Shown: positions 5,664 to 59,501 of the stretch, in pieces
How positions within the stretch are numbered: the first letter of the stretch is position 1
Layout of the letters: each line of letters opens with the position of its first letter
Origin: Tardiphaga sp. 709
GTDB taxonomy: Bacteria > Pseudomonadota > Alphaproteobacteria > Rhizobiales > Xanthobacteraceae
NCBI RefSeq assembly: GCF_032401055.1
Contig: NZ_CP135529.1
Location: forward strand, 310,001-374,000
DNA length: 64,000 nt
Reading direction: 5' to 3'
Program-made: the position numbers and the translations under genes
Notes under the pieces: generated by a model
Seen by the model: the letters and a program-made list of their open reading frames with translations, nothing else
Database searches by the model: none
Told to the model about the DNA's origin: nothing

Positions 5664-6842
5664 TTACGTCTGTGAGGTGTGCGTCGAGGCCGCGGGGGCA
5701 TCGGCGCTGCTCGGATCAAGGGTCTTGTCGTCCAATTTCTTGGCGGGGTTGAACATCGGCAACAGCACGCGAAACGTCGTCTTTCGTGGCTGAGATTCAC
5801 ATTCGATGATCCCACCGTGATCGCCGACAATCTTCGCAACCAATGCAAGACCCAGGCCGCTTCCGGTGGGCTTGGTGGTGACGAAGGGATCGAACAGGTT
5901 GGGCAGCAGATCTTCGGGAACGCCGGGGCCGTTGTCCTTGACGCAGAACTCCAGCGGCAATGATACGCGCGATTTCTTGCCCGGCACCGACAGCCGCACG
6001 CCCGGCCGGAACGCGGTGGTGAGCTGGATTTCGCCGTCGGAGCCGAGATCGACGATGGCTTCCGCGGCGTTCTTCACCAGATTCAGGAACACCTGAATCA
6101 GCTGATCCTGATTGGCCAGCACGGGCGGCAGCGACGGGTCGTAATCCTCGATGAAGCGGATGTTGCGGGCAAAGCCCGACTGCGCGAGGCGCTTCACGTG
6201 ATCGAGCACGGAGTGAATGTTGACCGGGCCGCGCGCCACCGGACGGTCGTCGCCGAACACTTCCATGCGGTCGACCAGCGTCACGATGCGGTCGGCCTCG
6301 TCCATGATCAGCCGCGTCAGCATGCGGTCTTCGGACGATGCCGACTGCTCCAGAAGCTGTGCGGCGCCGCGAATGCCCGACAGCGGATTCTTGATTTCAT
6401 GCGCCAGCATGGCCGCCAGTGCGATCACCGACCGGGCCGCGCTGCGATGGGTGAGCTGCCGATCCATCTTGTCGGCAATGGTGCGCTCCTGCAGCATCAC
6501 CACAATATGTCCGGGACGCTCTGTGAGCGGCGCGACATGCAGATCGACCTGACGGTCGCCGCCGATGCGGGGCGTGCCCAGATCCACCTTGTATTCGTTC
6601 ACCGGCGAACCGGCGGCGCGAACCTGATCGATCAGCGCCAGCAGCGGACTGCCGAATGGCACCAACTCTTTCAGAGACTGCCTGCGCAGGAACTGCGTAG
6701 AAATCTCGAAAAAGGATTCTGCAGCCATATTGGCGTCGACGATCTTGCCATCGGGTGCGATCAGGATCACCGGATTCGGTAGTGCGTTGAGAATGGCCTC
6801 ACTGTCGGTCGGGACAGGGCGACGGTGCTCTGCGGCGTTCAT
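5664..6842 (-). CDS. ntrB: NtrB, nitrogen-sensing histidine kinase
   Basis: The chosen start at 6842 forms an ATGA overlap with the dusB stop. An upstream in-frame start at 6857 would lie further inside dusB. The 392-residue protein has no membrane segment, as expected of cytoplasmic NtrB. It has an N-terminal PAS domain (about 20-120), HisKA with His148 ([17 protein letters not shown]) and a HATPase domain ([18 protein letters not shown]). It phosphorylates or dephosphorylates NtrC under PII (GlnB) control, which is family knowledge. The C-terminus after the kinase domain is Pro/Ala-rich. Confidence 0.96.
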
Positions 6843-51040: not shown

Positions 51041-52528
51041 TCAAATTCTCTGTCGACGCGGCTCACGATCAGCCAAGTCGGCTAGATCCGCATACGTCGG
51101 CAACTGCATGCCCGGTACAGGCTGGCTACCAACCACCAGAGCCCGATCAGGCTGACGAGGATATTCAATATCAACGCTCTTGACCGCCATCGCCAACGTT
51201 CGAAAGCCGTCCGCATAGTGGCTGGCCCAATTGTGTAGCGGCTTGTCCGAGAAGATCTTCTTCTCGTCGTCCCACTCGGTCTGATACTGCCTCAGACCCT
51301 CGACCGCGTTGTCATTGCACCGGCTTTCGTCGATGTAGCAGCGCGGGAGAATCTGGCGAACGGCTGAAATTCCGTCCATCAGCGCATGGTCCATAACCTT
51401 CTTCGGGTTCAGCCCGCATTCGATCATGACCTCGATGCGCTGCTTGGCTTCCCCATACTTCGGATCGAGCGGGTTGTTGTTCCAGACCCCCATCTCGCGT
51501 TGACGCCCGTCATGGGGGACATAATCGTCGCCCCGTTGCAGGCCTAGACGAGCCGCATACTCCTTGACGACCTCAGCATGATGCCCAATGCCATAATTAG
51601 AAGCGGCGTAGCATCCCAGAACCAGGACATGCGAATAGCCCTTCGTCCCAGGCACTACCTGGAAGAACCAGATGACGTTGGAATCCCGAATCCCAAGATC
51701 CCACGCGGTGTGAAGCGGATAGCCCTTGATCGGCTCAAGCGGTCTGATGCGCCCTTCCCGCGTCGCCTGTGCAAGCTCCTTGCCCCAGTAAGCGCCAAGA
51801 ATGGCTGCATCGGCTGAGCAATAGTATTCCTGCTGGATCAGGGCTTCAGCGGCATCGGCTCCGTACAGCGCCGTATAATCGACCCTCACCTCTGCAAGCT
51901 GCTCTGGGGAGATCATCCCCGTATCATCAATCGTCAGGGTTTCGCAGAACCAGTTCTTGTTGATCTTGGCTGCGGTGTGCATGTCGTGGGCGTGGTTCTT
52001 GCCACGCGGGGTGGTGATGAAATCTGCCCAGCCCCCGTTTTCGAGAAGCATGGGCTGCAGGTATCCCCACGAGGAGGGATTGGAAAGCGCCCATTCAGAG
52101 AAGACGATGCCAAAAGGTGTCGCGCCCACAAGGCTATTGGGGTTGTCCGATCCAACGACACGCCAAGATGCTCCCGACTTGAACGTGATAGACATATCGT
52201 CGTTACGGGTATTTTCCCTCAATTCGTGAGGAAAAGCCTCGTCAATTCTCAGCTTGCCGCTATGCGGATTGATTGCAGTCCAGATCGCCTTCCGGGCCTG
52301 GGTATATTCCGGCAGGCAGTGCCAGTAGTTGCCGATCCGCATATTCGGGCTTGGATTGGACGGATCAGGGTGCATGGCAACACAGGCCTTATGCAAACTA
52401 AGCTCATCCTTGCCAGCTCTACGATGCCACCAAAGGCTCGACCGCTTTACCCCACGTTCCCATGCCGACCATGCCGGCATTTGGTATTTGCGCGGACGCC
52501 AGCCGTTAGCTGGAATGGTTATCTGCAA
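51041..52528 (-). CDS. Terminase large subunit
   Basis: The TTG start at 52528 keeps the conserved MQITIPANGWRPRKYQMP N-terminus and overlaps the small-subunit gene by 23 bp. The first in-frame ATG would lose it. Of 495 residues, the ATPase part shows Walker A-like WHRRAGKDE and Walker B FGIVFSEWAL, then a nuclease part with HTAWDLGIRDSNVIWFF (RNase H-like Asp). It pumps DNA into the prohead through the portal and cuts it. Confidence 0.9.
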   Translation of the reverse strand: MQITIPANGWRPRKYQMPAWSAWERGVKRSSLWWHRRAGKDELSLHKACVAMHPDPSNPSPNMRIGNYWHCLPEYTQARKAIWTAINPHSGKLRIDEAFPHELRENTRNDDMSITFKSGASWRVVGSDNPNSLVGATPFGIVFSEWALSNPSSWGYLQPMLLENGGWADFITTPRGKNHAHDMHTAAKINKNWFCETLTIDDTGMISPEQLAEVRVDYTALYGADAAEALIQQEYYCSADAAILGAYWGKELAQATREGRIRPLEPIKGYPLHTAWDLGIRDSNVIWFFQVVPGTKGYSHVLVLGCYAASNYGIGHHAEVVKEYAARLGLQRGDDYVPHDGRQREMGVWNNNPLDPKYGEAKQRIEVMIECGLNPKKVMDHALMDGISAVRQILPRCYIDESRCNDNAVEGLRQYQTEWDDEKKIFSDKPLHNWASHYADGFRTLAMAVKSVDIEYPRQPDRALVVGSQPVPGMQLPTYADLADLADREPRRQRI

Positions 52529-52739
52529 AACGCACCACGGCGACGGTCAACGCATTCCCGTCAATATCCTGCAACGTCGTCGGCGCCTTACCCCACCCCC
52601 GATCAATGATGCTATTGGCAGCGGCAACACGAGCAGCAGCAGGCGCTGTCTTCTCGTTCATGATGCCTACCAGCACATTCAGCGCCTTATCGGAGTGCGA
52701 CCGCGCCAAAGATCGAATTTCTGCTGGTGCTTTAGCCAT
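52506..52739 (-). CDS. Probable terminase small subunit (77 aa)
   Basis: The helical protein MAKAPAEIRSLARSHSDKAL... contains APAAARVAAANSIIDRGWGKAP, a motif common in small phage DNA-recognition proteins of this type. It is immediately upstream of the large subunit. At 77 residues it is short for a small terminase, so this may be only the DNA-binding core. Confidence 0.65.
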   Translation of the reverse strand: MAKAPAEIRSLARSHSDKALNVLVGIMNEKTAPAAARVAAANSIIDRGWGKAPTTLQDIDGNALTVAVVRFADNHSS

Positions 52740-52980
52740 TTGTTCGGTTCAGGGCTTCTGATCGCCCTTCCCTAGTTTTTCGATGAAAGTACCGGGCGCC
52801 CCGCTCATGCAACTGGGCTTATGGGGGCTAAGGAATCGCGAAAGCGGAGCGTCCCGATTGGAATTTGATGCGCTGAGGGGACAAGCCGCCCTGCGGGTGA
52901 AGCCCAAGCAGGAATGGGGCTGTCGGTGACCGGCGCTATAGATCAACCTGATTTGCTCCAATCTCGCTATTAAGACTGTT
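52740..52980. other. Gene-free stretch before the terminase genes
   Basis: These 241 bp separate the NusG-like early/late switch genes from the terminase. A 70-codon minus-strand ORF (52749-52961) has no ribosome site and unlikely composition, so I left it out. The stretch is a candidate for the packaging site (cos or pac), which often lies beside the small terminase gene, and for a late leader with which the NusG-like factor could act. No clear promoter was identified. Confidence 0.4.
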
Positions 52981-53148
52981 TTAATTGGGCTTCATTTCAC
53001 GAATTATCCTCACGGCCTTCTTCCACGCCAATCGGTAAATCTCATTGCCGTTCTCCTGCTCAATACGTTGCGCCGCAGCTTCCAGCGTCTGGCGCTCAAC
53101 ATCCTCGCGGGCCAATTGCTCGGCAGTCTTGGGGTTGCCATAGCTCAT
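52981..53148 (-). CDS. Small helical phage protein after the NusG-like gene (55 aa)
   Basis: The ATG overlaps the NusG-like stop (ATGA). MSYGNPKTAEQLAREDVERQ... to RIIREMKPN is highly charged and almost wholly helical. No domain is recognised. Coupling to the NusG-like gene suggests a shared regulatory unit. Confidence 0.6.
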   Translation of the reverse strand: MSYGNPKTAEQLAREDVERQTLEAAAQRIEQENGNEIYRLAWKKAVRIIREMKPN

Positions 53149-53693
53149 GCTGCCCTCACCCCGCGCTCGCTCTCGACTCCATAGGTGTTACTGTCCTGGA
53201 GCTTGAAGTGGACCTTCTTGCCGGCGCGGCTGGTGATCGTTGCGAGCATATCCTCAAACTCGCCGACTACCACCATGATCTTGGCGCCGATCGGCATGGG
53301 CTTGTTCTCTTCCCAATCGACTATGATTTGTTTGCCCCTCAGGAGGCCGTACACGGGCCTCTTGCAATCCCGACGTACAAAGTCCCACTCGCCGTTCAAA
53401 TATCGCTCCTTGAGTCTCCAGATCGTTTCTGGAGGCACTGCAACGGCCCTGCCTGTCTCATCGGCGATCAGCGCCTCGATCCCGTTGACTTTCCGCACCG
53501 CGTAGAAATTGCCGTCAGGGATCTCGACGAACATGTACCGGCCGAGCACCGGGTATTCCTTGGCCTTCTTCGTTCGAGCGTGTGAAACCCAGCGGCGAAG
53601 CTTTGGCCAGAATGCCCGATAACCGAGCGAAGCCAGTTCCAGTTCGGCCCGGCGCTGACAGTTCGGATTCGTAACCGCGATGTACCAAGTCAT
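53145..53693 (-). CDS. NusG/RfaH-like transcription factor of the phage
   Basis: The start at 53693 (MTWYIAVTNPNCQRRAELEL) has AAGGGGCAG upstream. The 182-residue protein has an NGN-like domain (about 1-100: WYIAVTNPNCQRRAE, YPVLGRYMFVEI) and a C-terminal KOW-like SH3 segment (about 125-165: PIGAKIMVVVGEFEDMLATI). Host NusG is encoded elsewhere with secE, so this is a specialised paralogue. Lying just upstream of the whole leftward late region, it is placed to modify RNA polymerase for late antitermination. Confidence 0.8.
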   Translation of the reverse strand: MTWYIAVTNPNCQRRAELELASLGYRAFWPKLRRWVSHARTKKAKEYPVLGRYMFVEIPDGNFYAVRKVNGIEALIADETGRAVAVPPETIWRLKERYLNGEWDFVRRDCKRPVYGLLRGKQIIVDWEENKPMPIGAKIMVVVGEFEDMLATITSRAGKKVHFKLQDSNTYGVESERGVRAA

Positions 53694-54035: not shown

Positions 54036-54178
54036 CGGAATAGCTCCTTGAGTGTCAGTAGAGAGATCGCGGTAAAGCCGATTGTCAGAAATGTATTCCC
54101 GCCGTCGTTTAATTTAACATCTGGATAAGCGACTGCTGCGTACATCAGGATCGCCCACGCTACCGCGGTCATACCCAT
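54032..54178 (-). CDS. Phage small membrane protein (48 aa)
   Basis: The ATG at 54178 is one base from the upstream gene's stop and its own stop is overlapped by the next ATG. Two hydrophobic helices (MGMTAVAWAILMYAAVAY and FLTIGFTAISLLTL) are separated by a polar turn with Asp/Asn. Tight coupling on both sides supports it as a gene. Function unknown. Confidence 0.6.
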   Translation of the reverse strand: MGMTAVAWAILMYAAVAYPDVKLNDGGNTFLTIGFTAISLLTLKELFR

Positions 54179-58885: not shown

Positions 58886-59067
58886 GACAAGCGCACTTCC
58901 TTCTTGAGCTGCTTGTTCACGACATCCTTGAGCGCTTCCTCCAGCATGATCCGGCGAATGGATCGCTTCTTCTCGGAGGCGATCAGCCCGCGAAGGTGCG
59001 CAGCCTTGTGGATCGGCGCCAGCGGGCGAATGCGGCGGATGACTTCATGGAGGGGTGTCGGTTTCAT
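58882..59067 (-). CDS. Phage early basic protein (61 aa)
   Basis: Lys/Arg-rich helical protein (MKPTPLHEVIRRIRPLAPIH... LKDVVNKQLKKEVRLS) locked between neighbours by ATGA overlaps. Nucleic-acid binding is possible from charge alone. No family is recognised. Confidence 0.6.
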   Translation of the reverse strand: MKPTPLHEVIRRIRPLAPIHKAAHLRGLIASEKKRSIRRIMLEEALKDVVNKQLKKEVRLS

Positions 59068-59501
59068 GCCCGTCGCTCCAATGCACTGAAGCCAGGTTTC
59101 GGATCCCCGAACATCGCAGCGGTGAGATCACGAGGTGCGCAATTGATGCGCCTGTCCCGATCAATGAACCTTTCCGCCGGCACGATAGTGCGATCTGCTA
59201 CTAGGTTCGTGCAGACTGGAGGATCAGTGAGATCGGCATATCTACCGGCGCAGGACGAACGGGGCCGATCAAACTCGTGAGCGATATCACCCCATCGCAT
59301 CTTCTGCTCACGAAGAAGCAGAAGCTTGGCATCTTCCTCTGGCGTCCATGAACTGCAGCGAAACACTTTGACCTTGAAGCCTAGACGCTTGGCAGCCGTG
59401 CGGACATATTCGCGGCGGCACTTGAAGTGCTCAGCCAGCTTTCCGGCATCCCACTCTGGATTTTCAGCGCTCATCTGCTTGATTTCATCTGCCAGTGACA
59501 T
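59064..59501 (-). CDS. Phage early DNA-binding protein with SANT/Myb-like and HTH segments (145 aa)
   Basis: An N-terminal HTH-like part (DAGKLAEHFKCRREYVRTAA) is followed by a segment with the SANT/Myb spacing of tryptophans: SSWTPEEDAKLLLLREQKMR then WGDIAHEFDRPRSSCAGRYA. The C-terminus (ERFIDRDRRINCAPRDLTAA) is basic. Such domains occur in alphaproteobacterial and phage regulators. The product may regulate early or host genes. Coupled to the next gene by ATGA. Confidence 0.7.
   Translation of the reverse strand: MSLADEIKQMSAENPEWDAGKLAEHFKCRREYVRTAAKRLGFKVKVFRCSSWTPEEDAKLLLLREQKMRWGDIAHEFDRPRSSCAGRYADLTDPPVCTNLVADRTIVPAERFIDRDRRINCAPRDLTAAMFGDPKPGFSALERRA

Follow-up and report, generated by a model that had tools for sequence, protein, structure and literature searches.

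NusG paralogues are known to control host capsule, toxin, antibiotic or conjugation operons, whereas the antitermination of phage late genes is known from Q and related proteins. RfaH of Enterobacteria carries an NGN and a KOW domain and acts through the cis-element ops (GGCGGTAGCGTG) in the leader of a long, horizontally acquired operon; the ops element has been described as fitting a pause consensus (PMC7819879). In the case of LoaP of Bacillus velezensis, a recognition element, the leader hairpin of dfn, is followed by an intrinsic terminator before a long operon, with the regulator gene located nearby (PMC12691694). The late antiterminators of the lambda Q, Q21 and AlpA types are early-operon products that act on the leader just before the lysis/packaging genes, which is followed by a terminator, but the Q proteins are unrelated to NusG and bind a promoter-embedded site. 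In Caulobacter, GafZ performs antitermination of a phage-like structural cluster, the gene transfer agent (GTA), acting with RNAP and the host NusA, NusG and NusE (PMC11150451). Phage NusG-like proteins are catalogued as 'transcription antiterminator' (PHROG 6386/25909), but this is an annotation only. Reviews list host operons, plasmids and the occurrence of RfaH-like genes in prophages in general (PMC7819879, PMC6391919, PMC7593976), but no phage late-gene system, and no description of a cis-element, a partner protein or a late-operon role was found in the open-access literature searched.

Prophage NusG paralogue and its neighbourhood

The window analysed here, a stretch of 64,000 nucleotides of the Tardiphaga sp. 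709 genome (contig NZ_CP135529.1, positions 310,001 to 374,000), contains a prophage encoding its own NusG paralogue (Table 1). The product matches the Pfam NusG/NGN family (E=3.8e-10, above the curated cut-off) and the PHROG 'transcription antiterminator' (E=3e-10), and all 32 members of the alignment of phage relatives match phrog_6386. An AlphaFold model based on this alignment (mean pLDDT 90.7) has the NGN fold and a C-terminal five-stranded KOW-like barrel, with strands at 137-141, 150-157, 160-165, 171-175 and 179-181. The KOW domain was inferred from the model and from a conserved PxGA..xxGEF motif in the alignment, since no KOW hit was reported by Pfam. The best Foldseek matches in PDB include NusG and ops-bound RfaH (E down to 1e-9), and the NGN superposes on RfaH-NTD at 1.5 A; the identity to RfaH is about 22%. 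The model shows a beta KOW rather than the alpha-hairpin CTD of autoinhibited RfaH, but such predictions can miss fold switching.

The host genome contains three NusG genes: a housekeeping one, the one described here, and one in a second prophage. The phage proteins form a separate clade (100/99 support), and the KOW of those aligned lacks the IFGR loop kept in host NusG, through which housekeeping NusG of E. coli appears to contact Rho and S10. Four neighbourhoods of chromosomal NusG paralogues of relatives were also inspected, and these sit among sugar and polysaccharide genes, the known setting.

The small protein encoded immediately downstream is conserved in 26 aligned relatives and is predicted to form a two-helix hairpin (pLDDT 90.7). 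No relatives of this protein were found in PHROG, by PDB sequence or by fold. The cI repressor and cro genes lie at one end of the prophage and are followed by replication/recombination genes, the NusG and partner genes, 240 untranslated nucleotides, and then about 24 kb of leftward late genes, including those of TerS, TerL, portal, major capsid protein, tail and endolysin. The early operon also encodes a Myb/SANT-like DNA-binding protein, which could be an additional regulator. No Q-type antiterminator was hit among the prophage ORFs scanned. The initial annotation, which noted a NusG/RfaH paralogue at the head of the late region and no Q homologue, is thus confirmed.

Table 1. Features of the prophage late-control region; positions are those of the window.
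Position	Strand	Feature	Remarks
60679	+	cI repressor	
59064-59501	-	Myb/SANT-like DNA-binding protein	phrog_323, D5-like
53145-53693	-	NusG paralogue (NGN + KOW)	182 aa
52981-53148	-	Partner protein, predicted two-helix	55 aa; start overlaps the NusG stop by 4 nt
52740-52980	-	Untranslated leader	Predicted long imperfect hairpin, no canonical intrinsic terminator
52948-52955	-	Box 1	CAAATCAG
52929-52936	-	Box 2	GCGCCGGT (consensus CGGCCGGT)
52876-52901	-	Box 3	TTCACCCGCAGGGCGGCTTGTCCCC (consensus TTTCACCCGCMGGGNGGCTTGTGYC)
52506-52739	-	Likely small terminase subunit, first late gene	PHROG 15261 / 10899
51041-52528	-	Large terminase subunit	PHROG 2 / 2472
28510-52739	-	Proposed target: late operon (packaging, head, tail, lysis)	Leftward end approximate

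A conserved element in the late leader

The initial annotation suggested looking for an ops-like conserved element in 52,740-52,980, and such an element exists. Comparison of the DNA downstream of the partner gene in five relatives revealed a near-identical stretch, and alignment of 31 leaders showed three boxes: GCAAATCAG, then CGGCCGGT about 20 nt later, then TTTCACCCGCMGGGNGGCTTGTGYC. Box 3 of the window is the only match there at up to 2 mismatches and has an exact core, but it ends with TTGTCCC instead of TTGTGTC, and the spacing between boxes 2 and 3 is about 16 nt longer. As the window leader also has no canonical intrinsic terminator, this copy may be weakened or may rely on Rho.

Two searches blind to each other were made to find out whether the association might be due to chance. 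The 19-nt core of box 3, used as a DNA pattern against 2.9 million viral contigs, gave 32 loci (loci are labelled L below), of which 23 have an NGN-domain ORF just upstream on the same strand and three more are truncated within about 300 nt upstream. Of the remaining six, five (L053, L054/L073/L079 and L081) lack NusG and the flanking boxes and are treated as chance hits, while L061 has boxes 2 and 3 and a portal gene downstream but no NusG in 1.46 kb upstream, which remains unexplained. Conversely, a search of the same collection with the NusG alignment gave 38 loci, of which 29 have the core (at most one mismatch) within 1.5 kb downstream, 80-660 nt from the match, against none in 519 kb of the same contigs elsewhere. 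The two sets overlap and are therefore two views of one association, and a few contigs are near-duplicates (L051/L080 share leader sequence, L063/L064 share downstream sequence). Nine of the 38 loci lack the full core, but most of them keep box 1 or carry a variant. In L091, L093, L005 and L100 a variant of box 3 has a different 3' half, a hairpin followed by TTTTTGCGCTC or TTTTTGCGTAC, and perhaps represents a second specificity class.

At up to 3 mismatches, the element occurs once in 18 of the 19 viral or phage records searched (L005 lacks it), with no hits of the reversed control pattern. In 397 genomes of the order the exact pattern occurs once, in a NusG prophage. In a collection of 84,980 species, a slightly stricter pattern gave four loci: two Bradyrhizobium NusG prophages and two probable chance hits. 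The genome-wide pattern hits L084 and L087 lack NusG and the flanking boxes and are likewise treated as chance. The paralogue might instead act globally, in host takeover, anti-Rho activity or exclusion, since NusG homologues bind all elongating polymerases and loss of the IFGR loop would also make a Rho-blind NusG. However, its near-constant position before the late genes and its tight linkage to one cis-element found once per phage record make this unlikely.

The element was compared with the known recognition sites. No match to ops was found in the window leader at up to 2 mismatches; there are 13 such matches in the window against 8.35 by chance, and the only one with 1 mismatch lies at 54156, outside the leader. 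In contrast to RfaH, there are three boxes instead of one 12-mer, the regulator gene sits in the target transcript, and there is a partner protein. The one conserved candidate hairpin of the element, CCC-NNN-GGG, has a triloop of GCC, GCA, AGC, GTC or GGC, not the UNCG tetraloop of the LoaP leader; the partner protein and the control of phage late genes instead of antibiotic operons also differ from LoaP. Matches to boxA of the rrn type, known from lambda N/rrn antitermination, were at chance level and absent from the leader. RNAalifold found only short stems without covariation, although the invariance of the element makes covariation uninformative, and the window leader has no Rfam match. 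Box 3 was also considered as a conserved leader peptide (HPPGGLC), whose two variable positions coincide with codon wobble positions, but this frame is closed close by in many loci and is no longer than the other frames.

It is also possible, though improbable, that the element is a late promoter or an activator-binding site, with the late genes switched on by initiation and the NusG paralogue only raising elongation. GACA, box 1 and an AT motif do show fixed spacing, and the lambda Q-binding sites also sit inside a promoter. Nevertheless, there is no consistent -35/-10 pair with 16-18 nt spacing (GACA to the AT motif gives about 21), only one weak promoter-like match was found in the region, no more than shuffles give, and the conserved box 3 is GC-rich. 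A promoter here would not contradict downstream antitermination.

Linkage of NusG, partner and element

The partner gene is found beside almost every phage NusG gene, the exceptions being L058, L062, L124, the C-terminally truncated L042 and the distant L043. The first large ORF downstream was scanned in 20 loci and was predicted to encode TerL in 19 and portal in 1, from several unrelated PHROG groups (phrog_9, 38, 2, 3717, 2472, 5653). The NusG proteins of the window, L004 and L005 share about 88% identity, but L004/L005 have different terminases. So NusG, partner and element travel together, independently of the structural genes. A prophage with a NusG outside the main clade (L043) keeps boxes 2 and 3, which again precede TerS/TerL/portal. 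An alternative explanation could be that the element, being single-copy and directly upstream of terS/terL, is a packaging (pac/cos) site for the terminase, while the NusG paralogue is a neighbour with another role. This seems doubtful, since the element tracks NusG and not the terminase, and the three boxes with intrinsic terminators form an RNA-leader-like layout.

A relative is ppBjS10J-1, one of the Bradyrhizobium phages reported as spontaneously produced tailed particles (PMC10127595), in which NusG and the partner are annotated as hypothetical proteins.

Terminators and small RNAs in the leader

In the 220 nt after the element, 12 of 32 loci have a hairpin of -8 kcal/mol or better plus a T-tract, whereas 20 dinucleotide shuffles gave 0-6 (mean 2.6) and the same test upstream gave 2 of 32. 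Such a terminator is also seen by inspection in L056, L091, L093 and L099.

An mmgR/suhB-like sRNA (RF00519 or its TTTCCTCCC motif) sits in the late leader of phages from both NusG lineages. RF00519 lies immediately after box 3 in L075 (7723-7806, minus strand) and L066 above threshold, and weakly in L069, L074, L076 and L065; RF00519 or its motif also occurs in the leaders of L038, L132 and L133. It is unlikely that production of this small RNA, terminated downstream of the element, is the main function of the leader, since it is present in only some loci and the element is conserved without it. The two are compatible, however, as the terminated leader may be the sRNA, as with the lambda late-leader 6S RNA.

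Possible mechanism of late-gene control

The layout of early genes, NusG, partner, recognition element, terminator and late genes is that of an antitermination leader. The comparative evidence supports the late antitermination system built on NusG that was proposed in the initial annotation, and the locus is probably a self-contained late-gene antitermination module. In the prophage and early in induction, RNA polymerase reaching the leader may stop at terminators or by Rho after the element. Once the early operon has made the NusG paralogue and its partner, these may load onto polymerase as it transcribes the element, probably aided by a pause at box 3, whose GG..TTGTG appears to fit the elemental pause consensus (G-11G-10..T-3G-2Y-1G+1). 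The NGN might then displace host NusG and, with a KOW lacking the IFGR loop, make the polymerase pause- and termination-resistant through the late operon. Thus, it would fill the role of lambda Q by an RfaH/LoaP-like mechanism. The three spaced boxes resemble a nut or LoaP-type RNA signal, while the pause-like core resembles ops. In contrast to the GafZ system, the NusG itself is phage-encoded here. Such a system would link the two fields, explain how many rhizobial and soil temperate phages without a recognisable Q control lysis, and allow protein, partner and site to be read side by side in more than 30 natural variants.

A further reading, only slightly more likely than not, is that a processive antitermination complex, built from the phage NusG paralogue and the dedicated two-helix partner, assembles on a tripartite nut-like site, replaces Q in a group of temperate phages of soil Alphaproteobacteria and is exchanged as a module between phages with unrelated late genes. 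In this reading, a second, divergent NusG lineage in other Bradyrhizobium phages uses leaders with serial terminators and an mmgR-like RNA.

Related phage loci

The second prophage of the same genome (contig C1, about 479-487 kb; locus L038 4169-11547, NusG in L003 1156-1761) has a different NusG paralogue, which keeps the IFGR loop. Its gene is located between a replication-initiator gene and TerS/TerL/portal, with several intrinsic terminators and an mmgR-like RNA (RF00519) in the leader. Bradyrhizobium phages OP596612 and OP596613 have the same arrangement, and the NusG-like protein of the latter (OP596613.1 15032-15709) is annotated as 'ABC transporter substrate-binding protein' in the public record, a likely misannotation.

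ORFs which, by eye only, look like homing endonucleases of the HNH type (L005 about 5700-6150, and L100) and the GIY-YIG type (L040) lie inside the leader, between the partner gene and box 3; the element looks like a homing target. Phage tRNA genes (Met in L040 16764-16840, minus strand; Thr in L123 4730-4805; Thr in L005 6246-6322) also lie in the late leader after the partner gene, in L040 and L123 directly after the element.
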